Shown here: piece by piece, positions 7,756-24,093 of the stretch
Layout: each line of letters begins with the position of its first letter
Position numbering within the stretch: position 1 is the stretch's first letter
DNA from: a virus
DNA length: 24,093 nt
IMG/VR virus record: IMGVR_UViG_3300043772_000098
Location: 1 to 24,093 of that record
Strand: one strand, 5' to 3'
Translations under genes and position numbers: made by a program
Notes under the pieces: model-generated
Databases searched by the model: none
Told to the model about the DNA's origin: nothing
Seen by the model: the letters and a program-made list of their open reading frames with translations, nothing else

Positions 7756-8880
7756 ATGGACCCGAACGTTATCAAACTTGCGATGGGTGCGGCTGGGGCT
7801 GGTGGTGCAGATAACAGACTATATGGATGGGGACGCAATATATATGGCGAAATTGGTCTTGGGAATACGACCTCGTATTCATCTCCAAAACAAGTTGGCG
7901 CACTAACAACTTGGTCCCAAATTGCTATGGGACAAAGCCACTCTCTAGCTATTAGCGAAAGTGGAGCTTTGTGGGCTTGGGGGACTGGAGGATCTGGAAG
8001 GCTTGGTCTTGGTAATACAACCTCGTATTCATCTCCAAAACAAGTTGGCTCTCTTACAAATTGGGCAACCCTTATGAAATCTAGTGGCACTCCAAATTTT
8101 AGTGCTGCTATTAAGACTGATGGAACCCTTTGGATGTGGGGTAACAATAGCAATGGTCCGCTTGGTCAAGGAGATCTAACTTATCGGTCATCTCCAGTTC
8201 AGGTAGGTGCATTGACCAACTGGAGCAAAGTAGCTACTGGTAGTACGGCAACAATTGCTATTAAAACAGACGGAACTATTTGGTCTTGGGGAAGAAACGA
8301 CGTAGGCCAACTTGGATTGGGCGATCTTACAGATCGTTCATCTCCAGTACAAATCGGATCATTAACAAATTGGGCAGACGCAGCAATTAACCTACACTCT
8401 CTTTTTGTTAAAACCGATGGAACGCTTTGGTCGTGCGGGTTAAACCGTTACTCTGCTGCTGGAGCTCTTGGGCTTGGAGACTCTGGAATTGATAGAAGTT
8501 CGCCAACTCAAGTTGGATCTCTTACCAACTGGAGCAAAGTGGCTACTGGCGACGGATCTTCGTTTGCCATCAAAACCAACGGAACACTTTGGGCTTGGGG
8601 CAACAATAGTAATGGTCAACTTGGACTTGGCAATACCACTAATCGATCATCTCCTGTGCAGGTGGGGTCTTTAACTAATTGGAGTAATATTGTTGCCAGT
8701 GGATCATTTGTTGTTGCCGTAAAAACCGACAAAACGCTTTGGGCTTGGGGAAGTGGTTCCTATGGAAGACTTGGGCTTGGAAACACCACAAGCTATTCCT
8801 CTCCAAAACAAATTGGATCACTAACTAATTGGAATAAGATTGCAGCCGCATTCTCAACTGCTCTTGCTACAACGCAGTAG
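7756..8880 (+). CDS. RCC1-repeat seven-blade beta-propeller protein
   Basis: Residues 22-374 consist of seven RCC1-type repeats of about 50 residues, each with LWxWG ... GxLGLGxTxxxSSPxQVGSLTNWSK ... SFAIKTDGT. Seven is the number needed for one closed propeller, and the protein ends within blade seven. The first 20 residues, MDPNVIKLAMGAAGAGGADN, are hydrophobic and Gly-rich and are probably an anchor to the virion. RCC1 propellers bind proteins or carbohydrates; the eukaryotic GTPase role does not apply. The gene is visibly AT-richer than its neighbours (TATATATGG, many A/T third positions), suggesting recent acquisition. It lies in the fibre cassette, between a fibre and a glycan-modifying enzyme, so a receptor-binding or displayed protein is the best guess. 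No signal peptide or catalytic residues are seen. Confidence 0.88.
   Translation: MDPNVIKLAMGAAGAGGADNRLYGWGRNIYGEIGLGNTTSYSSPKQVGALTTWSQIAMGQSHSLAISESGALWAWGTGGSGRLGLGNTTSYSSPKQVGSLTNWATLMKSSGTPNFSAAIKTDGTLWMWGNNSNGPLGQGDLTYRSSPVQVGALTNWSKVATGSTATIAIKTDGTIWSWGRNDVGQLGLGDLTDRSSPVQIGSLTNWADAAINLHSLFVKTDGTLWSCGLNRYSAAGALGLGDSGIDRSSPTQVGSLTNWSKVATGDGSSFAIKTNGTLWAWGNNSNGQLGLGNTTNRSSPVQVGSLTNWSNIVASGSFVVAVKTDKTLWAWGSGSYGRLGLGNTTSYSSPKQIGSLTNWNKIAAAFSTALATTQ
7855..8049 (+). repeat. Near-identical 45-base direct repeats in blades 1 and 2
   Basis: 7855-7899 and 8005-8049 differ at only two of 45 bases (7863 vs 8013 and 7869 vs 8019). The offset is exactly 150 bases, one blade of 50 codons. Later blades encode the same motif with more different DNA, for example near 8770-8815. 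This points to recent duplication or gene conversion of blade 1/2. Confidence 0.9.
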
Positions 8881-8924: not shown

Positions 8925-10703
8925 GTGAGCAACAACTTGCCTAAGAAACTTCACTTCCTTTCTGGCCTTCCTCGCTCTGGTTCGACGGTGTTAGCTGCGA
9001 TTCTTAACCAGAATCCGCAGACGCACGTTTCAACCACCTCCGGTCTTGGTGCTGCGCTTGACGCTCTTGCTTCAGCGTGGCATCGAGAGCCGCTTCTTGA
9101 GAAGAACGACCTAGATCGCAAGAAGCTGGCAAACGCAATGCGCGGCCTGATTAACGGCTACTATGACGAGGTTACGGACAAGCCTGTTGTCATTGATAAG
9201 GCGCGTAACTGGCCACTTCCTGTTGTGGTTTCTGCGATGAGTCAAGTGCTTGAGCACAAGCCGCGCATCATTGCAACGGTTCGCAGCGTTCCCGACTGCA
9301 TGGCTTCGTTTGTCCGTGTAGCCAAGCCAACGGATCTCGACGACTTTGTGCATAAGTCTGGACTGGCTGGGCATCTCAAGACTTCCTACCAAGTGTTGCA
9401 GGCTGGCTATCAAGCTGATCCAGAGTGCTTTTTGTTTGTGGAGTATGAAGACCTTCTCGCTGATCCGCGCACCCAGCTTAAGCGCATCCACGACTTCCTC
9501 AGCCTCGACCCGTTTGAGTATGACCTAGAGCGCATTGACGGCTCTACCGTCAAGGAAGACGACGAGGGGCTGCATGGCGTAGTTGGCCTACACGACATCA
9601 AGCCTAAGCTGGCTCGGCAGCACAATGAGTCGGCCAAGGATATTCTCGGCTACCATTACGGTCAGTTCTCCCAGCCCGAGTTTTGGTTGCCTAAGCCGCG
9701 CACCATTGCACCACTAGACGACCTAGATCTACAGCTTGCGGCGTCTACAATGGGCAACTTTGACGAAGGCAAGCGCATCGCCGAGAAGCTGAAGGTGGAA
9801 CGCCCCAACGATCACCGCGCAGCCTACAACCGTGGCTGGTACGAACTGCGAGACGGCAACATCCAAGAGGGCTACAAGCTCCTCCACCGTGGGCGCAAGG
9901 TAGGCGTCTTTGGCAACAGCCAGCCCAACACTCCACAGCCTGAGTGGGATGGGCGCAGCGGCAAAACCATCCTGCTCCACCTAGAGGGCGGTTTGGGCGA
10001 TCAACTCCATCAGGTGCGCTACACTCGCGAACTTCGCGCAAAAGGCTTCAGCCCCATTGTTAGCTGCTCTGGGGAGCTTGTTTCGTTTATTTCGTCTACG
10101 GATTTGGCTGATGCCGTAGTGCAGCATGGGGCAGAGTACGGGGTCTATCACGACTACTGGATGGCTGGGATGTCGTCCCCGATCTATCTGAACATCGGGA
10201 AAAACACAATTCGCGGAGACTCCTACATTCACCAAGACTTCACCGTCCAAGGCAAAAAGCTGCGGGTAGGTCTGCGCTGGTCAGGCAACAAAACCTTTGA
10301 GGCCCAGCATCACAAGCTGTTCCCGGCCCACCTGTTCTTTGATGCCGTCAAGCGGGATGACATTGAGTTTATCTCTCTTCAACGGGATGCCGACCTAGAG
10401 CACAAGCCTAGCTGGGTGCAGGATGTACCGCTTCAGACGTGGCACGACACGCACAAGGCGGTAAGCTCCTGCGACCTCGTAATCACTAGCTGCACGTCCG
10501 TAAGCCACCTGTCCGCAGCAATGGGTATCCCCACTTGGGTTGTCATTCCAATTATGGGGTATTATCTGTATGCCGAACCCGGCAATAAGACGCCCTATTA
10601 CAACTCTATGCGGTTGTTCCGCCAACAGAAGTATGGCGACTGGACCCACCCTTTTGAAGAAATTAAGAGCCTAGACTATTCCCATGAACTACTGCTTTGT
10701 TGA
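8925..10703 (+). CDS. Sulfotransferase-TPR-glycosyltransferase (GT9-like) fusion
   Basis: A 592-residue two-enzyme fusion. Residues 9-250 are a sulfotransferase: the PAPS 5'-phosphosulfate loop SGLPRSGSTVLAA (13-25), VIDKARNWP (89-97), the 3'-phosphate site IATVRSVPDCMASF (116-129) and VEYEDLLADP (172-181). Residues about 264-325 are TPR-like helices. Residues 346-590 match the GT9/heptosyltransferase-type domain linked to TPRs: LHLEGGLGDQLHQVR, then LRVGLRWSGN, then DLVITSCTSVSHLSAAMG, then YYNSMRLFRQ near the end. Together these could transfer sulfate and a sugar to a glycan or protein. It lies between the RCC1 gene and a tail-assembly-chaperone-like gene, overlapping the latter by 20 bases. 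There is no signal peptide or membrane segment, so it acts in the host cytoplasm. Substrate unknown. The domain calls are strong; a role in modifying fibres versus host surface polysaccharide is inference. Confidence 0.85.
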   Translation: MSNNLPKKLHFLSGLPRSGSTVLAAILNQNPQTHVSTTSGLGAALDALASAWHREPLLEKNDLDRKKLANAMRGLINGYYDEVTDKPVVIDKARNWPLPVVVSAMSQVLEHKPRIIATVRSVPDCMASFVRVAKPTDLDDFVHKSGLAGHLKTSYQVLQAGYQADPECFLFVEYEDLLADPRTQLKRIHDFLSLDPFEYDLERIDGSTVKEDDEGLHGVVGLHDIKPKLARQHNESAKDILGYHYGQFSQPEFWLPKPRTIAPLDDLDLQLAASTMGNFDEGKRIAEKLKVERPNDHRAAYNRGWYELRDGNIQEGYKLLHRGRKVGVFGNSQPNTPQPEWDGRSGKTILLHLEGGLGDQLHQVRYTRELRAKGFSPIVSCSGELVSFISSTDLADAVVQHGAEYGVYHDYWMAGMSSPIYLNIGKNTIRGDSYIHQDFTVQGKKLRVGLRWSGNKTFEAQHHKLFPAHLFFDAVKRDDIEFISLQRDADLEHKPSWVQDVPLQTWHDTHKAVSSCDLVITSCTSVSHLSAAMGIPTWVVIPIMGYYLYAEPGNKTPYYNSMRLFRQQKYGDWTHPFEEIKSLDYSHELLLC

Positions 10704-11127
10704 GAACAACGTTATTGCCGATGGCCCCCGCGCACTACCTAAGTCGTGGCGTAATATTTCTGGCCTTGACCAGATGGATGATGATGGGCTTCGAGAGCTT
10801 GGTTGGCTTCCTGTCCGCCTTGAGGAGGGCGATGTTCAAGAGAAGTTTGTTGGCTCAGTTTTTGCCATCCTTCCTAGCGAAGTAGTAGAGACCAAGATTT
10901 GGCGGGCGTACACGGCTGAAGAGCAGGCTGAGATTGACACCCAAAAAGCGGCTCAGGTGCGCCGCGAGCGCAACACCAAGCTAACTGAGTGCGATTGGAC
11001 CCAGCTTAACGACACGCCGCTGGATAACGCCGCTAAGATCCAATGGACGGCTTATCGTCAGGCTCTCCGCGATGTTCCCTCTCAGGCAGGGTTTCCGCAT
11101 AATGTAGTTTGGCCCACAAAGCCTTGA
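10684..11127 (+). CDS. Tail assembly chaperone-like protein
   Basis: A 147-residue protein. The C-terminal half has the pattern of small phage tail-assembly-chaperone families, a helical segment RRERNTKLTECDWTQLND followed by WTAYRQALRDVP and FPHNVVWPTKP. The N-terminal half begins with a strand (YCFVENNVIADGP) and contains PKSWRNISGLD and LRELGWLPV, also familiar from these families. Such proteins assist fibre or tail folding. The ATG lies 20 bases inside the preceding gene, which the N-terminal family pattern supports, suggesting coupled translation. Placement between the two fibre genes fits a fibre chaperone. Family recognition is from memory; whether it helps fibres or the RCC1 protein is not known. 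Confidence 0.7.
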   Translation: MNYCFVENNVIADGPRALPKSWRNISGLDQMDDDGLRELGWLPVRLEEGDVQEKFVGSVFAILPSEVVETKIWRAYTAEEQAEIDTQKAAQVRRERNTKLTECDWTQLNDTPLDNAAKIQWTAYRQALRDVPSQAGFPHNVVWPTKP

Positions 11128-13142: not shown

Positions 13143-13286
13143 ATGCCACTCACAAAGAAGGGTAAGAAGATTAAAGCCGCCATGACCGAGGAATATGGCC
13201 CGAAGCGAGGCGAACAAGTGTTCTATGCTTCCCGAAACAAAGGTACAATTAAGGGCGTAGATTTCAAGCGGCGTAAGGTATCATAG
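13143..13286 (+). CDS. 47-residue basic protein, fifth of the small-protein cluster
   Basis: ATG 13143 to TAG 13284-13286. The sequence MPLTKKGKKIKAAMTEEYG, then KRGEQVFYASRNKGTIKGV, then FKRRKVS is of a widespread small phage type (AM..EYG..RGE.VFYAS.NKGTI.G). It continues the tandem 2-base spacing. No function is known to me. It ends 32 bases before the nozzle gene. Confidence 0.7.
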   Translation: MPLTKKGKKIKAAMTEEYGPKRGEQVFYASRNKGTIKGVDFKRRKVS

Positions 13287-13318
13287 TTGAACCTTAACCG
13301 CTGGTTAGGGATTCATCT

Positions 13319-15505
13319 ATGGCACGTTACAGCAGCTTTAGTGGCCGGGATACGCCTATTGCCGAGACGGCAGATATTGGCTTTTCCCGATTTAACAACC
13401 GCCTCCGTCCTGACCAGTTAAAGGCCGGGGAGCTTGCTATGTCCGTCAATGGACGGATGAACGTGGATGGGACGTGGCAGGTGCGTCCCGGCGTAGATAC
13501 GTTTGGCCCTGTTATTGGAACGAAGGACGAGACGCTTGCTCTGCCGTTCTATCTGTGGCCGCAAGTGGTTATTAGCTCGGCCACCCGCAGCGGCACGACG
13601 GTAACCATTACTACGTCAACCAATCACGGTTTCTCGTCGTCCTACGCTGTTGCTATTGTAGATGTTGGCCCCGGCACGGTGGATCCTAACGGCAACAAGA
13701 CCATCACCGTTACTGGTCTTGATACGTTTACCTACACGATTGCTGGTGCCACCGGAAGCGAGACCTACTCAGTTACTGCTAGCTCTAAGGCTGGTGGAGC
13801 TATCCTCGGAACCAGCAGCATCAACGGAGCTTTCGGCTCATGCCTGTTCTCAAATCCCGCATCGAACAACGACGAGTACATCATCCTCGCTCTGTTCTCG
13901 AACGCCATCGCTATCAACATGGCGACCAAGGCAACGACGACGATTGCCTACCCTTCTGGCATCTTTATTTCACAACCCGTGAATATGCTGCAAACCTTCA
14001 ACAAGGTTTTGATATTCCGCGACGGGGCTACGGCTCTGGAATGGAATGGCAGCTTTAGTGGCACGCCAGCCTTTACGAAGGTGGCTAATGGAGATTACGC
14101 CGCAACCACTTACTTGGATTCAAACAACAACACCGTAATTGCAAACGGTATTGTAACGGTTAGCGAAACGGCTCACGGTTTTTCGGTTGGGGACAGGGTT
14201 TATGTTGTTGATAAAGGAAGCTCCACCCTTGTTGAGCAAGAGGAAGGGTATGTTATTGCTACGGTAGCAGACGCCGATACCTTTACTTTCTACGCTGAGG
14301 TTCCAGACCTTACCTCTCACAAGGTGGTGTACGCCAAGAGACAGCCTTCCCAGCTTGGCTTCACGCATATGCCCGCGCCCCCGTGGGGAGTCTATCACCA
14401 GCGGCGTTTGATTGTTCCCTACTATTACAACACCACGGGCAGCATTGGCAGCGAAACAATTACGGACCGGAACGTCAGGGATGAAATCCTCCTATCGGAC
14501 GTATTTGACTCTGACACCTATGACCGCATCCAAAACCAGCTAAAGGTTACGGCTGGGATTGCGGACTATCTCCAGTATGTTCACCCATTTACTGAGGATA
14601 ACGCTGTTATCTTCAACCGCAATTCGATCCATCTAATGCTTGGGCTGAGCGGATCTATTGCGGATATTTCTTTGAAGGAAATCACCCGCGAGGCTGGGTT
14701 GGTGGCGCAGAAGAGTGTGGTAACTATTGGCGACCGCATCTTTTTCTTGTCTGACAACGGCGTCTACTCCACGTCCTTCCAAGACTTGTACAACCTTCGT
14801 GGCGCGGGGCTACCCCTGTCTGACCCGATTAATCCGCTCATCAAGCGGATCAATCCAGACTACGCCCACAACGCTGTGGCGGTCTATCACGACAATCGTT
14901 ATTGGATTGCAGTACCACTAGATAACAGTCCGCGCAACAATGCCATCCTCGTCTACAACCTGTTGAATCAGGGCTGGGAAAGTTTGGATATCATCGACCA
15001 AGAGGGCTGGGACGTCAGCAACTTCATCGTGTCTGGGGCTGGCGGCATCAACAAGTTGTATGCCGTCAACCGCTTTGGTGGTGTGCATACCATCGATGAG
15101 CGCGTGGATGGGTTCGACTACATCTACACGGTTCCCGGCGGCGACTCTATCCCTTACCCAATTGAGGCAGAGGTAGTTACCCGCCAGTATGTCTTTGACG
15201 ACGTTGGCCGCAAGAGCTTCAATTCCTACGAGATCCACGTTGAAAGCTCTGAGTACGAGCCAAGCGATGGCGACATCACCATGATTTCCGAAAACATCGA
15301 TAAGGAAGCCCCGATGTACTCATTGGCTCAGAGCCTTGAGGAAGACCTGCCTATTGGCGAGGATAGCTCTATTCGTGGCCGCATTGGCAACATCCGCGCC
15401 TACGGGATGCAGATGAAGTTTGTCCCCACCAAGGGCCGTCCTAAGCTCCGTATGGTGAAGCTAGAAGCCTATCAAGCATTCCGCTCTGTTACTGAAGCAT
15501 CGTAA
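13319..15505 (+). CDS. Tail nozzle / stabilisation-type protein with two beta inserts
   Basis: A 728-residue protein likely closing the short tail, in the role of P22 gp10 or T7 gp12. The start MARYSSFSGRDTPIAET with RLRPDQLKAGELAMSVNGRMNVDGTWQVRPGVD (residues 29-60) is typical of the type. The C-terminal half (VHPFTEDNAVIFNRNSIHLML; VVTIGDRIFFLSDNGVYST; DNRYWIAVPLDNSPRN; AILVYNLLNQGWESLD) shows repeated beta-propeller-like strands. Two inserts, residues about 85-156 and 272-331, are related: GTTVTITT-HGF...GPGTVDPNG and GIVTVSETAHGFSVGDRVYV..ADTFTF, an HGF/ADTFTF pattern seen in many phage tail proteins (FCCH-like). The first resembles the connector insert. The partial SD AGGG ends 8 bases before the ATG. 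Its last base is shared with the next ATG. Confidence 0.75.
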   Translation: MARYSSFSGRDTPIAETADIGFSRFNNRLRPDQLKAGELAMSVNGRMNVDGTWQVRPGVDTFGPVIGTKDETLALPFYLWPQVVISSATRSGTTVTITTSTNHGFSSSYAVAIVDVGPGTVDPNGNKTITVTGLDTFTYTIAGATGSETYSVTASSKAGGAILGTSSINGAFGSCLFSNPASNNDEYIILALFSNAIAINMATKATTTIAYPSGIFISQPVNMLQTFNKVLIFRDGATALEWNGSFSGTPAFTKVANGDYAATTYLDSNNNTVIANGIVTVSETAHGFSVGDRVYVVDKGSSTLVEQEEGYVIATVADADTFTFYAEVPDLTSHKVVYAKRQPSQLGFTHMPAPPWGVYHQRRLIVPYYYNTTGSIGSETITDRNVRDEILLSDVFDSDTYDRIQNQLKVTAGIADYLQYVHPFTEDNAVIFNRNSIHLMLGLSGSIADISLKEITREAGLVAQKSVVTIGDRIFFLSDNGVYSTSFQDLYNLRGAGLPLSDPINPLIKRINPDYAHNAVAVYHDNRYWIAVPLDNSPRNNAILVYNLLNQGWESLDIIDQEGWDVSNFIVSGAGGINKLYAVNRFGGVHTIDERVDGFDYIYTVPGGDSIPYPIEAEVVTRQYVFDDVGRKSFNSYEIHVESSEYEPSDGDITMISENIDKEAPMYSLAQSLEEDLPIGEDSSIRGRIGNIRAYGMQMKFVPTKGRPKLRMVKLEAYQAFRSVTEAS

Positions 15506-15837
15506 TGAAGCCTATCTATGAGGCTAAAAAGATGTTTTTGGAGCGCGGCCTCAATTTTGAGGAACAGCTTAGTTGGTATCTGACCAATGGCGTGGTCTTA
15601 AGCCTAGAGGATCGCTTCCTCATGGCTAAGCCGATTGAACTGGCTAAGGGGGACGATAGCTGGAACCCCGAAAACCCAGACTGTTGGTATGTTCATTGTG
15701 CCGTTGGAAACGACTGCCTCAAGTGGTTTTTCGACCAAGCACCCTACCGTTTGCCCTACATTGGGTGGCGGCGCAACAAGGACGGAAATAACAGGTTTAG
15801 AGTGTATAATGCCTCCACATTCGAGCGATTTGCATAA
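15505..15837 (+). CDS. Small conserved-type phage protein, 110 aa, unknown function
   Basis: ATG overlaps the nozzle stop by one base. The protein contains ERGLNFEEQLSWYLTNGVVL, RFLMAKPIEL, WYVHCAVGND and LPYIGWRRNKDG. The pattern (N-terminal helix, NG-V-SL/TP, WYVH-A-G-D, then PY-GW-R) is familiar from tail regions of podovirus-like phages, where its role is unknown to me. It has no membrane segment. Sitting between nozzle and ejection genes suggests a tail or injection role. Confidence 0.65.
   Translation: MKPIYEAKKMFLERGLNFEEQLSWYLTNGVVLSLEDRFLMAKPIELAKGDDSWNPENPDCWYVHCAVGNDCLKWFFDQAPYRLPYIGWRRNKDGNNRFRVYNASTFERFA
15805..15810 (+). promoter_or_regulatory. Consensus TATAAT -10 candidate
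   Basis: An exact TATAAT sits inside the 3' end of the preceding gene, 27 bases before the ATG of the large repeat protein at 15838. No -35 element at 16-18 bases is recognisable. It is plausible as an internal promoter but may be chance. Confidence 0.25.
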
Positions 15838-18800
15838 ATGAAAACTTCGATTTCAGCACCACCCCCTCCCCCGGCTCCCGTTGACGTTGGGCAAGCATCC
15901 TTGGACTACATCACCAAGATGGCCGATCCTGAGTTGCAGGGTAAGATTTTGGCTGCTGAACGGGAGTTTCGTCCGCAGTATACGGCTCTCAACCTTGCCG
16001 AGCAGGAGCAGTACCTTCGTGGTGTTGGTGGACAGGCTGGTGCAATCGACATCCTTAAGCAAATCACTCCTGACCTTGTAAAAGCTCAGGAAATTGCTGA
16101 TACGGCGCAACGCGATGCAGACATCCGCGCTCTCCAGAGTCAGAGCGGTGGTTACCTGTCTGCGCTCATGCAGGCCAACCCCCAGATGTTTGCCCAGCTT
16201 GAAGCTGCGCGAGGAATGGGCGGAAAGACTGATTTTTTTGGTGGCCTTCAAGGTGCCATTCAAAACTCGATTAGGTATGGCGATATCGTTCCTACCTCTG
16301 CTCAAGCTAGCCTGCTTGGCAATCTTCCAAATGTAAACCTTGAGGGATATACGGCAGCTACGGGTCAGGCCAATCTACAAGAACGCGCCACTCCCATTTC
16401 GCTTGGTGGATTTAATGCCGCACAAACGCAAGCAACGCTTGCTGGTGTCGCTCCACAGGCTTCTGCAACTGGCTATCAAGCAACGGCTGGAACTGCAGAT
16501 TTGCAACAGGCCGCGCAGCCTGTAACACTTAGTGGATTTCAAGCTGCTCAGGGACAGGCTCAGGCACAGGCTCAGGTAGCTCCGATTTCTCTTGGTGGAT
16601 TCCAAGCGGCTCAGGGCCAAGCCACTATAGCTGGGGCGGCTCCGCAAGCTCAGGCTGCTTTGGCTGGTGCGGCTCCCAGTATGCAGGCCATATCGGCTGG
16701 TGCTGTTCCTTTGGTGCAACAGCAGGGCTTTGGTGCTGAACGTGCGGCTGCTGCTACGCTTGGTGCCGCTCCGACTGTTCAGCAGCAGGGGTATACGGCT
16801 GCGCAGATGCAGGCGTCCCTTTTGGGTGCTGCCCCCACGGTTGCCGCTCAGGGCTATCAAGCTGCTCAGGCTCGTAGCGTTGCTGACGTTGCCGCTCAAC
16901 AGGTGGCTCAGGGTGCTCTCGGTCAGTCGCTGTACGGACAGGCTCTTACCGCCGCGCCCACCTCTGCCTCTGAAACCTTCCGGCAGCGTGCAGCGCAGAT
17001 GGCTACCTCTACGGGTCAACTGTCGCCAGAGGAGCTTCGTAATGCCCAGCAAGCCACCCGTGAAGCCTTTGCTGCGCGTGGCCTAGAGATGAGCAATCAG
17101 GCTATTGCTGCTGAAGCCATGTCCCGTGCGGGTGCCGTGCGTGAACGTCAAGCTCAGGACATCCAGCAAGCCTCGGCCCTCAACCAAGCCTACCTTGCCG
17201 ACCTTTCTGCTAGCCGTGGCTTTGCTACGGGCGTCTATGGGCAGGATCTTGGTCTGCAACAGGCTAACCAAGCGGCCAACTTGCAGGCTGCTATGGGCAA
17301 TCAGCAAATGGCTGGTCAGCTTTCTCTGGCCGACCAAGCTGCCATGAACCAAGCAGCGCAATTCGGTGCTAGTGCTGGTAATGCGGCTGCTATGGCTAAC
17401 GCCCAACAGCAGGCTCAATTCGCAATGGCGAACCAGCAGGCTCAAATGCAGGCTGCTGCTGCTAATCAGGCCGCTCTCAATCAAGCTGGTCAATTTGGCG
17501 CTTCAGCGCAGAACGCTGCCGCTATGGCTAATGCTGAGCGTCAGGCTCAGTTTGCTTTGGCTAATCAGGGCGTGCTTTCCCAGACCAATTTAGCCAACGC
17601 TGGGTTTGGCAATCAAGCTGCCCAGTTTGGAGCGGCTGCTCAGAACGCAGCGGCAATAGCTAATGCTGAACAGGCTGCTCGTTTCGCCCTCGCTAACCAG
17701 CAGGCTGGTATGCAGGCAGGACAGTTCAACGCTCAGCAAGCTGGACAGTTTGCTCTAGCCAACCAGCAAGCGCAGATGCAGGCCAATCTAGCAAATCAGG
17801 CTTTGCTTGGTCAGTACGGCTTGTCCAATCAGTCGGCTGCTAACCAGTTTGGCCTAGCCAATCTTGAGGCTCAGCAGGCCGCTGCTCAGTTTGGAGCTAG
17901 TGCGTCTAATCAAGCAGCGATTGCCAATCAGCAGGCTGCATTACAACAGGCTGCTCAAAATCAAGCAGCCTTCAATCAGTTTGGCTTGGCTAACCTTGAG
18001 GCTCAACAGGCTGCTTCCCAGTTTGGTGCTGGTGCTGCGAACCAAGCTGCCCTCGCCAATCAGCAGGCTGCTTTGCAGCAAGCTGCCGCCAATCAGCAAG
18101 CACAACAGCAAATGGCGTTGGCTAACATTTCAGCACAGAACCAAGCCGCGCAATTTGGTGCTGGTGCTCAAAATCAAGTTTCGTTGGCAAATCAGGCTCT
18201 TCTTGGACAGTATGGATTGTCCAATCAAAGTGCAATGAACCAGATTGCGCTTGCGAATATGCAGGCTAATCAAGAGGCGGCTCAATTTGGTGCCTCTGCT
18301 AGCAATCAAGCTACCCTTGCCAATCAGCAGGCGTTCTTGCAGCAGGCCGCTGCCAACCAGCAGGCTCAGCAGCAGATGGGGTTGGCTAATCTTTCTGCCC
18401 TTAATCAGGCAGCGCAGTTTGGCTCCCAGCTTTCGGCTCAGGGCCAGCTTGCTAATCAGGATGTCGCGGTTCGTGCAGCTATGGCTAACCAAGCTGCCCA
18501 GAATCAGTTTGGGCTGTTTAACGCTGAACAGGCTACCAACACCGCCCTACAGAACCGTGCCTTCCAGTCTGCCCAACAGCAGCAGAACATTAGCAACCTC
18601 GGCCTCCTTGGTCAGGCTCAACAGGGTGAACTGGCTGCTAACCGCGCCTTCCAGCAGAACCTCGTTGGAATGTATGGTGCGGCGTTTGACCCGATGTCTG
18701 CGGTGCTGGGTCGTCCGTCTGGTGCCCTTGGTGTGGGTCAAAACCAGCAGGGCATGGCGGCTAACATGATGCAGACGATGGGTGGTCAGGTGTTTAGTCC

Positions 18801-18996
18801 TGACGCTGGTGTTAACCTCGCCCTTCAGAATGCTGCTAACCTTGGCAACTATCAGGCTTCCACCTACGGTGCGCGTGCTGGTGCTCAAGGTGCAGCTATT
18901 GGTGGACTTATGTCTGGTCTTGGATCTGCTTTTGGCGGCTTTGCCTCTGGTGGGTTTGTTAACCCATTTGCCAAAAAAAGACCTCCCACCGGATAA
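15838..18996 (+). CDS. Giant Ala/Gln/Asn-rich repeat protein, probable ejection protein
   Basis: A 1052-residue protein. Residues 1-169 are non-repetitive with a Pro-rich start (APPPPPAP). Residues 170-359 form an array of about eight 21-residue units (G-Y/F-x-A-A-Q..QA.L...AP). A helical stretch follows (LSPEELRNAQQATREAF, NQAIAAEAMSRAG). Residues 508-903 are nine units of exactly 44 residues, QFGAxAxNxAxxAN..., each made of four 11-residue steps, which predicts a long helical, coiled-coil-like rod. The C-terminus is Gly-rich (GGLMSGLGSAFGGFASGG, then FVNPFAKK), possibly membrane-interacting. It begins one base after the preceding stop and is followed by two more large proteins, the order in which podoviruses keep ejection proteins. 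A tail-length or internal rod is the alternative. No enzymatic motif is seen. No known family is assigned. Confidence 0.7.
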   Translation: MKTSISAPPPPPAPVDVGQASLDYITKMADPELQGKILAAEREFRPQYTALNLAEQEQYLRGVGGQAGAIDILKQITPDLVKAQEIADTAQRDADIRALQSQSGGYLSALMQANPQMFAQLEAARGMGGKTDFFGGLQGAIQNSIRYGDIVPTSAQASLLGNLPNVNLEGYTAATGQANLQERATPISLGGFNAAQTQATLAGVAPQASATGYQATAGTADLQQAAQPVTLSGFQAAQGQAQAQAQVAPISLGGFQAAQGQATIAGAAPQAQAALAGAAPSMQAISAGAVPLVQQQGFGAERAAAATLGAAPTVQQQGYTAAQMQASLLGAAPTVAAQGYQAAQARSVADVAAQQVAQGALGQSLYGQALTAAPTSASETFRQRAAQMATSTGQLSPEELRNAQQATREAFAARGLEMSNQAIAAEAMSRAGAVRERQAQDIQQASALNQAYLADLSASRGFATGVYGQDLGLQQANQAANLQAAMGNQQMAGQLSLADQAAMNQAAQFGASAGNAAAMANAQQQAQFAMANQQAQMQAAAANQAALNQAGQFGASAQNAAAMANAERQAQFALANQGVLSQTNLANAGFGNQAAQFGAAAQNAAAIANAEQAARFALANQQAGMQAGQFNAQQAGQFALANQQAQMQANLANQALLGQYGLSNQSAANQFGLANLEAQQAAAQFGASASNQAAIANQQAALQQAAQNQAAFNQFGLANLEAQQAASQFGAGAANQAALANQQAALQQAAANQQAQQQMALANISAQNQAAQFGAGAQNQVSLANQALLGQYGLSNQSAMNQIALANMQANQEAAQFGASASNQATLANQQAFLQQAAANQQAQQQMGLANLSALNQAAQFGSQLSAQGQLANQDVAVRAAMANQAAQNQFGLFNAEQATNTALQNRAFQSAQQQQNISNLGLLGQAQQGELAANRAFQQNLVGMYGAAFDPMSAVLGRPSGALGVGQNQQGMAANMMQTMGGQVFSPDAGVNLALQNAANLGNYQASTYGARAGAQGAAIGGLMSGLGSAFGGFASGGFVNPFAKKRPPTG
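16345..16914 (+). repeat. Array of 21-residue (63-base) repeats
   Basis: Units begin at residues 170, 191, 212, 233, 254, 297, 318 and 339 of the 1052-residue protein. The consensus is G-(Y/F)-x-A-A-Q-x-Q-A-x-L-x-x-x-A-P. Spacing is exactly 21 except between 254 and 297 (43 residues), where a degenerate unit sits. A 21-residue coil suits a solenoid-type fold. Confidence 0.85.
17359..18546 (+). repeat. Array of 44-residue (132-base) hendecad repeats
   Basis: QFG motifs occur at residues 508, 552, 596, 684, 728, 772, 816 and 860, all in multiples of 44; the unit at about 640 is degenerate but keeps the phase. Each unit divides into four 11-residue steps, for example LANQQAFLQQA then AANQQAQQQMG. 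DNA copies also recur in phase: GCAAATCAGG at 17791 and 18187 lie 396 bases apart (3 x 132). Confidence 0.9.
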
Positions 18997-19018
18997 CCTC
19001 ATTAAATCCCTTTAATTT

Positions 19019-20344
19019 ATGGCACGCATTGGAACAGGTATTCGTCCAGAACTGGGGCGCATTGATTACACGCCGTATATGCAGGGTGCTCTTGCTGGCA
19101 GTCAGTCGATTGCTCAGGGCATTGCTACGCTCGGGCAAATCGCTGGCAAGTCCATCAGCGACTACTACGCCAAGAAAGAGGAGGAAAAGAAGAAGGATGA
19201 GGCTGCGAACTCGTTCATCAAAACCGTCGAGGCAAATCCTGCTGCCTTCCAAAGCTACTTAAAGGACGGGAAGGTTGATAAGGATGCAGTTAGGTCGATG
19301 GTGAATACTCTTGGTTATGCTGCCACGTTGCAGCTAAACACCTATCTTTCTGACGCCGCTAAGCAGGCTAAGGCTGAAAAGACAAAGGGCGATGCGGCCA
19401 AGTATGCTGAGTTTCTTACTACGCAGAGTGCTCCTTCTGCTAATGAGCCTGAGTTCATGTCTAATCTTCGCGATTTCCGCCAGAATCGTGAATTTGCTGG
19501 GCTATCCGCAGAGGCTCGTAGGGCTGGTCAAGCTATGGCTCTTGAGCAGCAGCTTGGTCAGGCTCAACTTGGCAAGGTTCGGGCTGAGGAGCTGGCTTTG
19601 CTTAGGCCGAAACAACAGAATCTCAGCTTCCAAGAGCAACAGGCGCAGGCTGAGTTTGCTGCTTTTGAACAGGTGAACGGACGCGCACCCAACGCCCAAG
19701 AAAAGGCTAGGATTCTTGATAAGATTGCTAAGGCAAGTGCCTCAACCACTAACATCGACATGGGCCAGAAAAACGCCATTGAGCAAAAAGCGTTTGATAC
19801 GTTTGCAAAGCAACGCGAGCAACTGGCCCCTGTGTATGCCATGACTAAGGTTTCTCCAATTCTAGACGATCTCTTAAACAAGAGGGATCTTATTACTGGT
19901 CCGTTTGCCAACGTCGAGATGGGGCTTAAGTCAGCGGCTCAGGCTGTCGGTATCGCAATCTTCCCAGAAGTCGCAGACACGCAGACATACATGAATCTTA
20001 TTGGTCAGCGAGTTGCGTCCCAAATCAGGAGCTTTGGCTCAGGCACCGCCGTTAGCGAAAAGGACCTTAAATACGCAACAGCAATGTCTGGCGCGGATGT
20101 GACTCATACCATTGAGTCACTTCGCGAACTCAATCGTATTCTTAAGGAGCTTGAGTCCACAACCATCAGGGACTATGAGGACCGCGTTACTCGCGTTTTT
20201 GGTAAGAATGAAACTGCGTTTGAAACGCTGAAGTTCGGGCTTCCTGACAAAACCACAAAGCCACCCGCTCAAACTCCAACTACTGAAATGACGTTTGACG
20301 GATCGCGCCTGCTTCCGGCTTCCAGAGGGTTTGGCCGGTTTTGA
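19019..20344 (+). CDS. Probable internal virion / ejection protein, 441 aa
   Basis: A mainly helical protein. Residues 17-48 (IDYTPYMQGALAGSQSIAQG, then ATLGQIAGKSISDYY) are a weakly hydrophobic helix, followed by a strongly charged KKEEEKKKDE run at 52-61. Residues 120-235 are Ala/Gln/Glu-rich helical. A C-terminal domain at about 270-395 contains ITGPFANVEMGLKSAA, ADTQTYMNLIGQRVASQI and GTAVSEKDLKYATAMSGAD, a pattern I recognise from structural proteins of other podovirus-like phages. The last 40 residues are Pro/Thr-rich. It starts 22 bases after the giant repeat protein; ATTAAA/TTTAAT inverted repeats (19001-19016) lie just before its ATG and no SD is seen. Virion location is inferred from position and composition. 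Confidence 0.65.
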   Translation: MARIGTGIRPELGRIDYTPYMQGALAGSQSIAQGIATLGQIAGKSISDYYAKKEEEKKKDEAANSFIKTVEANPAAFQSYLKDGKVDKDAVRSMVNTLGYAATLQLNTYLSDAAKQAKAEKTKGDAAKYAEFLTTQSAPSANEPEFMSNLRDFRQNREFAGLSAEARRAGQAMALEQQLGQAQLGKVRAEELALLRPKQQNLSFQEQQAQAEFAAFEQVNGRAPNAQEKARILDKIAKASASTTNIDMGQKNAIEQKAFDTFAKQREQLAPVYAMTKVSPILDDLLNKRDLITGPFANVEMGLKSAAQAVGIAIFPEVADTQTYMNLIGQRVASQIRSFGSGTAVSEKDLKYATAMSGADVTHTIESLRELNRILKELESTTIRDYEDRVTRVFGKNETAFETLKFGLPDKTTKPPAQTPTTEMTFDGSRLLPASRGFGRF

Positions 20345-20354
20345 TTTAGTTGGC

Positions 20355-20360
20355 TAAAAT
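20355..20360 (+). promoter_or_regulatory. Candidate -10 box just before the largest ejection gene
   Basis: TAAAAT ends 6 bases before the ATG at 20367. TTGGCC lies 18 bases upstream (20331-20336) as a poor -35. If used, the transcript would begin at about the ATG. Low certainty. Confidence 0.2.
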
Positions 20361-20366
20361 AAAACT

Positions 20367-23333
20367 ATGAAGCGAGTTACAGACAATCGCAGCAACAAGG
20401 TTTACCTTTTCCCTGATGAGCTATCCAACGAAGAAATAACTGAGCGCATCAACAGGGACTACGCTTCTATTGCCCCAGAGCTAGAGGCCCGTGGCCGAGA
20501 TGCGATGCTTCGCGGCAGCATGGCTGGGCTAGCTGGAGCGGGTATGGCTCCCGGTCCTGTGGCTGGTCTTGGGGCTATGGTTAGCAACGCGATGGGTGAA
20601 CCCAACTTTGGGCAGTCGATGCTCAACCAAACGGCCAATGTTGCGAGAGTTGCAGTTCCTGTTGCTGCTGGCGCACTTGCGGCCCCTGTTGTTGGAACTG
20701 GACTTGCTGGCGCAGCGGCTATTGCCGCTGTTGGCGGATTGAGCAGCGCGATTAGCGAGTTCCTTGGGCAGACCATTGAGCAGGCCAGCAACGAAGACAC
20801 TAAGTATTCTGGGCGTCAGATTGCTGGAGCGGCGGCTGGCGGTTCAGTTCCAATCATTGGCAAGGGTGGTATGTTTTTACGGCCATCCTTTAACGTAGCC
20901 GCGCAAACTGCTGGCAGCGAACTTTCGCGGTTCATTAGCTCCGGTCAGAATTGGGAGGAGTACAAGGACGACGGCTTTAAGTCCAAGGGCGGTCTTGATA
21001 CGACAATGCGCGTAGCTGCACCTCTCCTTGGCGGCGTTGCTGCTGGTACGGCGAGTCGTGTTGGTCAGCTTTCTGACGAGGCTAAGGCAAACATTGCCGT
21101 CATTCGCAATAATGGCTACACCGGCCCCGCTTCGCTTAGTATGGGTCTACCTGAGATGGCTGGCGCAGAGCGTGAGGCATTTGCTCGCAACTCTAGGAGA
21201 GCGTTGCAGGTTGTTGGCGATATTGAAGCAAGCCTTGATGATGCCATTCCTGCTGCGTTCCCTGATGTGCCAAATACAAGCGGGTTGCAGGACTACCTGA
21301 TCCAGACCACGGACAAGCTGAAGAATCTCCAGTCTGACTACCGCACGGCCAAGGCCGCTGCTGATCGCGCAACCATGATTGCGGAAGAGGCTCGTAGGAC
21401 TAACCAGACCGCCGCTCCTGCGCTGATTGCCGACGCCAAGCTCAAGGCTATGGAGGTTACGGCGCGTAGGGCTATGTTTAACAATGCTGCTGATACGTTC
21501 TTCGGCGGCAACAAGATCACTAGCATTGATGATGTCACCAGCGTTCGTCGTGGTGCTCAGCTAATGGATCTTGCTAGGGCGTCTGACGACTTTGTGAGCA
21601 GTGTTGTTAGTGCGGCCTACGATTCGGCTGGCATCAACAACAACTACACGGTGCTGACGCGAGCCGACTTTGAGCGCGAGGTAGCCAATCTAGCTAAGAG
21701 CAGCCGCAATGCGGTTCAAGGTAAGCTGGCCCGTCAAGACGTGCTGGATATGGCTGGCGCATTTTTTGATGCGCGAGCACCCAAGGGACGCCTTTCGTAT
21801 GAGGGCTTCAAGGAGTTCAAGAACAAGGTTTATAACGACTTTGTTGCTTCGGGTAAGAGTCCCCGTGACGCGGAAAGAATCACCCGAGATGCCTATCGCG
21901 CGTTGATTAACGCCTCTGAGTCCTATTTGAATCGCGTTGACCCAACCGCCGTTCCGAGGCTCCGCGCAGCTAACGCTCTGGCAAGCTCCCGGTTCTCTGC
22001 GATTGACACTCCGGTTTATCAGATGCTCGAAAATGGGCAGTCTGATTTGATTACCAATCTTCTGCTGGATGAGATCCCTGATGCCGCTAAGCAGCTTGGC
22101 GGTCGTCCCGTGATGGATCAGGTGGATGCCATTGCCTCGATGATTGCGGCGTCCGCTGATCCCGCCAATCCGTCTTCGGTCAATGCTGCCACAATGGCTG
22201 GCGACCTCTTCAAGCGAGGCTTCTTCGATAACGTCCGTGATTCGGTGTTCCGCCGCTCTCAGGTTGCTGGTGGTGGGCAACGCCTCAACCATGAGGCTTT
22301 CGATCCGGCAAAGATCGTTCAAGACTTGGACAAGCTGTCTGCCACCGGATTCCCTGTGCATGAACTGGGACTTGGTACGGCTAAGCAAGTTCGTGCTCTG
22401 GCTCGTCTCGGCGCACTCACTCAGGTTCCTGCCGTCAGTAAGCAGGAGTATGAAACCTTCCTAAATCAAGCCGTTGAGCTTGGTGCCGATACGGCTGCTT
22501 GGCGCGTAGAGTATGGCCGCGCTGTTCGCGACCAGCTTCTTAGCACCACCGCTAAGGCTCGCCGCGCAAATAACGCCCGTGTTTTCGAGGCCCGTCGCAA
22601 CGCCAAGATTGACGAGCGCGTGGCTAACGATGCGCTGGTTGCCGCGCAGAAAGACCCTCTGGTTGTCTTCCTAAACGATCAGGGCGTGAAGCTGTCCTCC
22701 GACCCCGGCAACAACGCCAAGTGGATTGAAAAGCTGCTTACGGTGGCTCCTGACACGCTAACCGACTTCACGGGGGCCTTGCAGGCATCTGGGCGCACCG
22801 CTGACCTAGACAACCTACGCCGTGCTGCTGCGGCTACGGTGATGCGTGAGTTCTACCCTGCTTCCAAGGGCGTGACGCCACAGGTCAATATGAAGAAGTT
22901 GACCGACTTCTTTAACAGCAAGGGCGGCGAAAATGAGATGAAGCGCAAGGCATTCCAAGCCATCATGGGTGCGGCTGAGTTCGACAATCTCAAGCGGCTC
23001 TACGGCGAGTACACCAAGATTGCCGTAGACTCTATCACCGACATCAAGTCGGGAGCTACTGAGCCTGTGCAGCGCGGTATCAACGTCCGCAATCGTCTGA
23101 CGCCTAACAAGGGTGTTACGGCCTACGTCAATCCGACTGAGCTTATGCGGATGATGGAGAACGGAATGTACAACATGGCCTACACCATGTACATCGATCC
23201 GCGCTATGCCCCCAAGTTCAAGGCGGCTGCTTCTAACACCAACGCCACAATTAGCCCTGCCCTTCAAGCGATCCTCACCATCTCCCGCATGGAAGATGAG
23301 AGGACTGAGCCGATGTTTAAGCCACCGCGCTAA
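20367..23333 (+). CDS. Large internal virion / ejection protein, 988 aa
   Basis: Residues 1-40 are hydrophilic (MKRVTDNRSNKVYLFPDELS). Residues 48-75 and 88-134 are Gly/Ala-rich hydrophobic segments (MAGLAGAGMAPGPVAGLGAM; AVPVAAGALAAPVVGTGLAG), as in proteins that insert into the cell envelope during ejection. The remainder to the C-terminus is long, charged and helical (for example LKNLQSDYRTAKAAADRATM; RRANNARVFEARRNAKIDER), with no transglycosylase, peptidase or other catalytic motif that I can see. Length and location as the last gene of the structural module match the largest ejection proteins of podoviruses. The C-terminus ends EPMFKPPR, a type of ending common in such proteins. Its TAA overlaps the stop of the convergent metallophosphoesterase. 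Role inferred. Confidence 0.7.
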   Translation: MKRVTDNRSNKVYLFPDELSNEEITERINRDYASIAPELEARGRDAMLRGSMAGLAGAGMAPGPVAGLGAMVSNAMGEPNFGQSMLNQTANVARVAVPVAAGALAAPVVGTGLAGAAAIAAVGGLSSAISEFLGQTIEQASNEDTKYSGRQIAGAAAGGSVPIIGKGGMFLRPSFNVAAQTAGSELSRFISSGQNWEEYKDDGFKSKGGLDTTMRVAAPLLGGVAAGTASRVGQLSDEAKANIAVIRNNGYTGPASLSMGLPEMAGAEREAFARNSRRALQVVGDIEASLDDAIPAAFPDVPNTSGLQDYLIQTTDKLKNLQSDYRTAKAAADRATMIAEEARRTNQTAAPALIADAKLKAMEVTARRAMFNNAADTFFGGNKITSIDDVTSVRRGAQLMDLARASDDFVSSVVSAAYDSAGINNNYTVLTRADFEREVANLAKSSRNAVQGKLARQDVLDMAGAFFDARAPKGRLSYEGFKEFKNKVYNDFVASGKSPRDAERITRDAYRALINASESYLNRVDPTAVPRLRAANALASSRFSAIDTPVYQMLENGQSDLITNLLLDEIPDAAKQLGGRPVMDQVDAIASMIAASADPANPSSVNAATMAGDLFKRGFFDNVRDSVFRRSQVAGGGQRLNHEAFDPAKIVQDLDKLSATGFPVHELGLGTAKQVRALARLGALTQVPAVSKQEYETFLNQAVELGADTAAWRVEYGRAVRDQLLSTTAKARRANNARVFEARRNAKIDERVANDALVAAQKDPLVVFLNDQGVKLSSDPGNNAKWIEKLLTVAPDTLTDFTGALQASGRTADLDNLRRAAAATVMREFYPASKGVTPQVNMKKLTDFFNSKGGENEMKRKAFQAIMGAAEFDNLKRLYGEYTKIAVDSITDIKSGATEPVQRGINVRNRLTPNKGVTAYVNPTELMRMMENGMYNMAYTMYIDPRYAPKFKAAASNTNATISPALQAILTISRMEDERTEPMFKPPR

Positions 23334-24093
23334 TTGAGGGCGCGTCCGTTGACGATGCGGTAGTTGGCCACCTCGTAATAGCTGCCGTCTAGGGTGACGA
23401 TGGCTGACCCGTGGTTGTAGCTGTTGTATGGGCTATAAGCGGGGTGCAGGTCCGAGAGGCACCCTACGCTCCAAGTGGTGGTCATCGTCCCATCTAGGGC
23501 CGTTTCCGTGTGCTCTGAGGTGCGGTGGTGGTGGCCGACCATGACGCTCTGCTTAGCCTTGAGGTAGGCTCCGCGAGCAGGGTTCACCGGGGGCGCGAAG
23601 CCCTTGTGGAACTCATGCCCATGCATCACGGCCAAACCACCAAGCATGATGATGCGCTTGTCGGTGACATACTCGATGCCCAAATCCTCAAAGTTGAGTA
23701 GCTTGTCGATGGAGCAAAATTTCTCATCGTAGACCTCGGGAGCCTTCTGCATCATGTAGGTCTTAAAGCGATCCTCATGGTTGCCGTCTCGCCAGACTAT
23801 ACGGGTATCAGGGAATTCTTGTCTTAGATACTCCAATAGCTCATTCGTCGTCTCACGCTCTTGCTTGAACGACCGAGCGCGAGGGTCTTTGATAAATTGA
23901 GAAAGGCTATGACAGTCGATGGTGTCGCCGTTGAGGATGATGCCGTCCACGTCCTGCTTCTTGGCGCGCTTCACCGCGCACTCAATGGCCTCCTCGGTAT
24001 GGTAGGGAACATGGATGTCTGAGAGGATAGCCACCTTATCCACCCCATCCATGATGAAGGGGGACCACTCACGAACGCAAGACTTGGGGATAG
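23330..24093 (-). CDS. Calcineurin-like metallophosphoesterase (5' end may lie outside window)
   Basis: A binuclear-metal phosphoesterase. Counting from the first ATG at 24052 the motifs are: LSDIH (D12, H14), NGDTID (D43), GNHE (N91, H92), MHGHE (H144, H146) and GHHH (H174, H176). All metal ligands are present, so it should be active. The frame stays open upstream of that ATG to the right window edge with sensible residues (SCVREWSPFIMDG), so the true start may be earlier; related phage enzymes often carry an N-terminal DNA-binding-like domain. It is the only - strand gene and converges on the ejection gene with stops overlapping at 23330-23333. Substrates could be nucleotides, nucleic acid ends or phosphoproteins; the sequence does not decide. 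Confidence 0.85.
   Translation of the reverse strand, partial: IPKSCVREWSPFIMDGVDKVAILSDIHVPYHTEEAIECAVKRAKKQDVDGIILNGDTIDCHSLSQFIKDPRARSFKQERETTNELLEYLRQEFPDTRIVWRDGNHEDRFKTYMMQKAPEVYDEKFCSIDKLLNFEDLGIEYVTDKRIIMLGGLAVMHGHEFHKGFAPPVNPARGAYLKAKQSVMVGHHHRTSEHTETALDGTMTTTWSVGCLSDLHPAYSPYNSYNHGSAIVTLDGSYYEVANYRIVNGRALN

Follow-up and report, generated by a model that had tools for sequence, protein, structure and literature searches.

Organization of the locus

The window, that is, the whole stretch of 24,093 bases analysed here (positions 1-24,093 of the virus record IMGVR_UViG_3300043772_000098 in IMG/VR), encodes an SU10-type major capsid protein assigned to the SU10_MCP family (3.2e-47) together with portal-like and nozzle-like proteins; large genes follow downstream of them as a block. 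The nozzle-like virion protein (728 aa, 13319..15505, plus strand) matched the virion structural protein family phrog_3287 (2.9e-8), shared 34% identity with the "head closure" protein of phage C75C1 and was constant in length across the family; a search among solved structure chains gave no convincing match to it. It is followed on the same strand by a small 110-aa protein of conserved position (15505..15837), the 1052-aa array protein (15838..18996), and two proteins of 441 aa (19019..20344) and 988 aa (20367..23333), which by conserved gene order are the second and third of three putative ejection proteins. Neither a family match nor a solved-structure match was found for the 988-aa protein. 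The same order of nozzle, small protein, array protein, a protein of 400-670 aa and a protein of 966-2096 aa was kept in the window and in its relatives.

Upstream in the window, the tail region includes a 374-aa RCC1-repeat protein (7756-8880, plus strand) with seven stretches matching PF00415 (8.8e-72), a beta-propeller that is possibly a receptor-binding tip, and a 592-aa protein (8925-10703, plus strand) in which an N-terminal sulfotransferase domain (PF13469, 7.6e-16) precedes further, unassigned sequence. A small protein next to them (10684-11127, plus strand) carries a C-terminal phage tail assembly chaperone domain (PF16778, 7.9e-27). The structural block closes with a calcineurin-like phosphoesterase encoded on the opposite strand (23330-24052, minus strand).

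Relatives of the array protein with the same architecture were present on about 45 viral contigs. Its N-terminal domain (residues 1-146, 15838..16275, plus strand like all the parts that follow) is charged and, judging from its composition and a low-confidence model, predicted to be helical, with a pLDDT of 50-70 in the model of a shorter relative (L026). The putatively extended "tape" region (residues 147-356, 16276..16905) consists of repeats of about 21 residues (5+5+5+6), each with one G[YF] motif, which appeared as an autocorrelation at 21; neither AlphaFold model gave regular structure for this region. An invariant turn module containing LSPEELRNAQQATREAFAARGLEMSNQAIAAEAMSR (16906..17229; alignment A1) measured 107 residues between anchors in all members and leads into the hendecad array (residues 465-948, 17230..18681). 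As a whole, the window protein had no match in Pfam, PHROGs (phrog_4287 included), solved structures or cultured-phage genomes, probably because low-complexity filtering hides the array.

The C-terminal tail (residues 949-1052, 18682..18993) finishes with the GGFVNPFAKKRPPTG end, which is exchanged for several others among relatives. In L003, L022, L059 and others it is replaced by the pattern CWVAREVYG..NP.W..FREWL..KAP.WF.KLY..YGE.FA.W...KPRIKNLIRKWMDSRI, an end without a Pfam match that is swapped against GGFVNPFAKKRPPTG in otherwise similar phages. Peptidase_S74 chaperone ends were detected only in the relatives L105 and L120, and the domain was absent from the window protein in the Pfam search. 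Another set of array proteins (L138, 4819-7965; also L127, L136 and L143) carries a Hint-like C-terminal domain, which is unexpected on a virion protein and in L138 matched PF13403 at 3.3e-5, below the curated cut-off.

The hendecad array and its conservation

The array comprises 44 units of 11 residues (44 x 11), with QFG-type hendecads recurring every 44 residues. The initial annotation had described a strict 44-residue array of nine units at 17359-18546, a stretch enclosed in the array as delimited here. The nine units were recovered, with in-phase QFG motifs at residues 508, 552, 596, 684, 728, 772, 816 and 860 and a degenerate unit lacking QFG at 640, and residues 508-903 coincide exactly with those nucleotides. 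Identity at lag 44 reached 0.495, whereas 500 shuffles gave no value above 0.256 at any lag. The proposed 11-residue sub-period was borne out by raised autocorrelation at all multiples of 11, and the near-uncharged composition by a content of 2.8% charged residues over residues 461-920. Three further QFG motifs (670, 714 and 890) lie off the 44 phase. The description as a strict 44-residue array had to be revised, however, in its unit and its extent: the array is longer, and because some relatives are only one hendecad apart and others several, the unit conserved is that of 11 residues, with the period of 44 arising secondarily from duplication of four hendecads. Growth by in-phase duplication, also claimed earlier, agrees with the DNA copies of the nine 44-aa blocks, which are in phase with identities of just 0.39-0.76, so that the duplications are old.

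Relatives were collected by viral contig searches, 30 at first and further ones later; at least 120 viral DNA stretches matched a degenerate DNA pattern for ANQQAxxQxxLANQ, and scans of bacterial genomes yielded no relatives. In clade X1, to which the window belongs, the array measured between the anchors GVYGQD and YGA/AFDP was exactly 11n in every complete member (n = 17, 18, 19, 20, 21, 22, 32, 33, 34, 37, 44 and 50, the 37 units being those of L040), with one fixed extra residue ahead of the SFDP anchor in one sub-clade. The more distant clade X2, anchored at GLYGQE and AAYDP, likewise showed exact 11n spans (n = 14, 18, 20, 26, 32 and 42), and a third group (L068, L069 and L102) had spans of 11n+1 with n = 13 and 16. 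The 11-residue step is thus kept in relatives as whole hendecads between anchors (13 to 50 units, with a single fixed residue added in two clades). Exact multiples alone are not proof of selection on phase, since recombination between repeats could also yield them.

Steps of 11, 7 and 4 residues return to one face of an α-helix, and a mixture of 7 and 11 is a mark of α-helical coiled coils. In arrays of the GAFGGSR families, identity peaked first at 11n, then at 11n+7 (7, 18, 29, 40, 51, 62 and 73) and then at 11n+4, and related arrays mix 7- and 11-residue steps. Together with the exact 11n spans and the absence of proline from all 303 distinct hendecads, this mixing supports the α-helical reading of the hendecads in the initial annotation, and on such periodicity the array is very probably α-helical. 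This predicted helix has its main Ala/Phe seam bordered by polar positions 2 and 8, an arrangement compatible with bundles or tubes. AlphaFold models were helical over most of the array of the window protein and over parts of that of L026, at mean pLDDT values of just 39.8 and 47.4, respectively. Profile comparison gave no demonstrable homology between the SPEELRN turn module and the GAFGGSR module of other families, and homology between them is therefore not claimed.

Length coupling between the tape region and the array

While other segments were checked for fixed steps, the length of the tape region was found to be proportional to that of the array. This second repeat at residues 147-356, length-locked to the first, had been overlooked in the initial annotation, and a length-matched partner region for a hendecad array in the same chain is the new observation of this work. 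In X1, the tape region lengthens by 5.317±0.008 (5.32) residues per hendecad, with r = 0.99997 and a largest residual of 0.7 aa, in a fit of 28 proteins and 14 distinct points (n = 17 to 50) with anchors on both sides of the region; these sequences, like those of the other coupling tests, are related, and the counts are not independent data points. In X2, the tape region measures exactly 5n-19, or 5.00 residues per hendecad. The lengths of the N-terminal domain and the C-terminal tail showed no dependence on n.

Further X2 members were fetched as a test, and 5n-19 held without error for n = 14, 18, 20, 24, 26, 28, 32, 42 and 44 with one exception, the newly fetched loci including contigs seen earlier and adding the sizes n = 24, 28 and 44. 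The exception, L245, has an array three hendecads short of the predicted one (compare L244), which may reflect a recent deletion or an assembly collapse. Misassembly of repeats in metagenomic contigs is possible, yet it would break such a coupling rather than create one.

Coupling was also observed in family Y1, composed of L104-like proteins with a different module and unrelated flanks. There, 16 proteins giving 11 distinct points yielded a slope of 0.50±0.016 aa per array aa (r = 0.995), or about 5.5 residues per hendecad, with residuals of up to 7 residues and arrays that mix step sizes; a stricter tail anchor gave a slope of 0.467 from five points. This single-family test replaced an all-against-all pair test in the GAFGGSR families, which was discarded because its anchors were mixed: some pairs anchored inside the N-region showed no change, and L088 and L122 differ by an unrelated N-terminal insertion. 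The literature searched, open-licence papers only, contained no description of such length coupling.

A close relative, L022, indicates how the two regions may stay matched. Its DNA is 99.2% identical to that of the window over 19065-24093 and 93.9% identical over 13218-16263, it has 21 hendecads compared with 44, and its tape region is shorter in keeping with 21. As the close match ends 13 bases ahead of the start of the tape region, tape region, turn module and array seem to have been exchanged together, which would keep them matched. The comparison of window positions 13218-24093 with L022 also showed that the ejection genes recombine as cassettes. Relatives with a nozzle about 97% identical have very different array, second and third proteins.

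Antiparallel register of the two repeats

When the tape region was read antiparallel, from its C-terminal end backward, 191 of its 195 G[YF] motifs fell on hendecads starting with Phe, in a test of 31 distinct patterns with offset and slope fitted, one pair per clade. Register shuffles (5000) gave a mean of 63.5 (sd 5.6) and a maximum of 84 of 195, and the best offset of a parallel reading gave 130 of 195. All four misses sit in L245. In the window, hendecads 5, 9, 13, 21, 25, 29, 33 and 37 pair with QGYQA, QGYTA, QGFGA, GGFQA, SGFQA, TGYQA, GGFNA and EGYT, respectively.

Proposed architecture

An α-helix rises by 1.5 Å per residue, or 16.5 Å per hendecad, and the same span of about 16 Å is covered by 5 residues of a beta-like strand (3.3 Å each) or by 5.3 residues of a polyproline-like chain (3.1 Å each). 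The ratios of 5.00 and 5.32 fit this spacing of an extended strand per 16.5 Å hendecad, from which we infer an antiparallel helix-strand rod. The whole protein would form a long antiparallel hairpin, in which residues 147-356 would run out as an extended strand at about 3.1-3.3 Å per residue, the invariant 107-residue module would turn the chain back, and residues 465-948 would return as an α-helix. Each strand step of about 5 residues may pack on one 11-residue helix step, with the register set by strand Gly-Tyr or Gly-Phe sitting on Phe-Gly hendecads, and such pairs might form within one chain or between neighbouring chains. A rod or tube built from several copies could result, with Ala/Gln/Asn as its lining or facing and a predicted length that ranges from about 23 to 83 nm by allele and is about 73 nm in the window. 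After release from the head, the assembly would act as part of the DNA-ejection apparatus of a short-tailed phage and extend the path beyond the nozzle.

This reading as a whole, a hairpin helix-strand rod or tube that likely belongs to the ejection apparatus, is given a probability of roughly 0.62. It is also fairly probable that the architecture was previously undescribed, that is, a strand and a hendecad helix of one chain zipped antiparallel with one pentamer to one hendecad, aromatic/Gly register marks and two separate parts of one gene gaining and losing steps in concert, an architecture common to several phage ejection protein families. A beta-solenoid or pentapeptide-repeat fold of the tape region was considered separately and rejected; no Pfam match was obtained, and the 5:11 ratio agrees with a chain extended at 3.0-3.3 Å per residue but not with a solenoid of about 20 residues per 4.8 Å rung.

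The ejection proteins and helical DNA conduits of short-tailed phages are only short-lived and therefore difficult to observe. The present family would allow the fold register of a rod of up to about 83 nm to be read residue by residue from natural length variants and sequence alone. The simple code, a QGYxA-type pentamer on a QFG-type hendecad, is testable by structure or mutation and may serve the design of rods of chosen length. It also poses the evolutionary question of how two distant parts of a gene keep an exact proportion.

Function and alternative explanations

The array protein is suggested to be a DNA-ejection rod or tube, a role favoured by the conserved gene order and by several features of relatives. 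In L122, the gene after the array encodes an SLT transglycosylase domain of the internal-virion type. L105 and L118 matched phrog_4287, "DNA ejection protein" (8.8e-25 and 4.9e-6), both being relatives without demonstrable flank homology to the window protein. In Sinorhizobium phage phiM5, the syntenic protein phiM5_27, which has hardly any array or none, carries the annotation "detected in phage particle proteome" and is encoded beside an "internal virion protein/exolysin".

The main rival is an external fibre, raised by those relatives that end in a Peptidase_S74 chaperone, a domain usual in tail fibres and spikes. The same helix-strand rod would then serve as the shaft in an appendage of the tail or head, with free length and exchangeable tip or chaperone ends. 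The S74 ends of L105 and L120 and the Hint-like end of L138 would suit such a shaft, as would the annotation of phiM5_27 as a "putative tailspike", the free variation of array length at constant nozzle and capsid, and a length of up to about 83 nm. In every locus read, however, the gene sits between the nozzle and hydrolase-bearing or giant internal-virion-type genes, the "DNA ejection protein" PHROG of the relatives spans both the array and the S74 end, and the window has separate fibre-like genes upstream (RCC1, 7756-8880; tail assembly chaperone domain, 10684-11127). An external fibre is regarded as unlikely.

It is improbable that the protein is an internal core or packing protein, whose uncharged helices would stay in the head around the portal or among the DNA with only a loosely constrained length. 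A near-zero charge would be useful beside packed DNA, and the T7 ejection proteins do form a core stack (PMC8954989), but so exact a register between strand and helix implies that the structure is defined and elongated, up to about 83 nm in length and likely too long to lie straight in such a head, and the capsid protein is nearly identical at 18 and 50 units. Since a straight rod of 73-83 nm may not fit the head of a phage of roughly 38 kb, an ejection rod of the preferred kind, if internal, would have to be assembled after release.

Long helical tape measure proteins act as rulers in long-tailed phages, and the exact step length might suggest that the array likewise gauges some set distance, for instance the thickness of the host envelope or the length of a tail, to which the initial annotation had proposed to relate the repeat number. 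This is very improbable, because array length is set by neither nozzle nor capsid. Across arrays of 14 to 50 units, every complete read from the two main clades had a nozzle of 726-728 aa, and the capsid protein was 98-100% identical to that of the window in phages with 18, 19 and 50 units and 90% identical in one with 42 units. The ruler was rejected on the near-identical phages with 21 (L022) and 44 (window) units; L015, with a third ejection protein 95.5% identical, has 18 units.

Least credible of all is that the segments are disordered, low-complexity products of neutral slippage without structural meaning, for although the biased composition, the low model confidence and the DNA-level repeats would allow it, the arrays contain no proline, and in both clades as well as in a third family two regions 107 residues apart keep strict proportion and antiparallel register, whereas slippage would lengthen the one region but not the other.

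Comparison with known ejection systems

The H protein of phiX174 forms a decameric α-helical tube with three hendecads plus heptads (121 residues, 170 Å) that is lined by Gln/Asn/Arg and passes DNA across the envelope (PMC7354561). Like the present array, it is amide-rich and built from helix steps of 11 (and 7) residues, and the window array shares the hendecad/heptad, amide-rich character of H (11n spacing, rich in Ala/Gln/Asn) when compared with Table 1 of that paper. By this analogy, a polar rod or tube form of the array is plausible. H differs in having three hendecads compared with 44 in the window protein, and no length-matched extended partner in the same chain has been described for it. 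Homology to H found no support, the array protein having no sequence match among solved chains.

In phage T7, gp15 and gp16 build a helical periplasmic tunnel cemented by an extended "molecular tape" of gp16, residues 157-228 (PMC8954989). As in T7, the putative ejection genes of the window follow the nozzle gene as a block, and a predicted helical part is combined with a putative extended tape; in T7, however, tape and tube belong to separate proteins, for which a proportional repeat code has not been described. With regard to gp14, gp15 and gp16, neither the family profile nor the 988-aa protein had a match among solved chains.

Members of PHROG 4287 occupy the same gene position, and those relatives that match it have the same type of array; the window protein differs from them in its N-terminal domain and turn module, and the array is small or lacking in members such as phiM5_27. 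The Kuravirus SU10, which shares the SU10_MCP capsid family with the window, releases ejection proteins of five types, by which its nozzle is believed to be extended, and the parts of its description consulted mention no array protein of the window kind (PMC9509320). Among cultured phages, C75C1 is distantly related through its capsid and nozzle and has, at the array position, a 2769-aa protein without an 11-residue array. This protein (L032, 38751-7576, across the origin) contains repeats of about 67 residues at residues ~1980-2330, and near residues 170-320 it has a tandem duplication of 75 residues that looks perfect.
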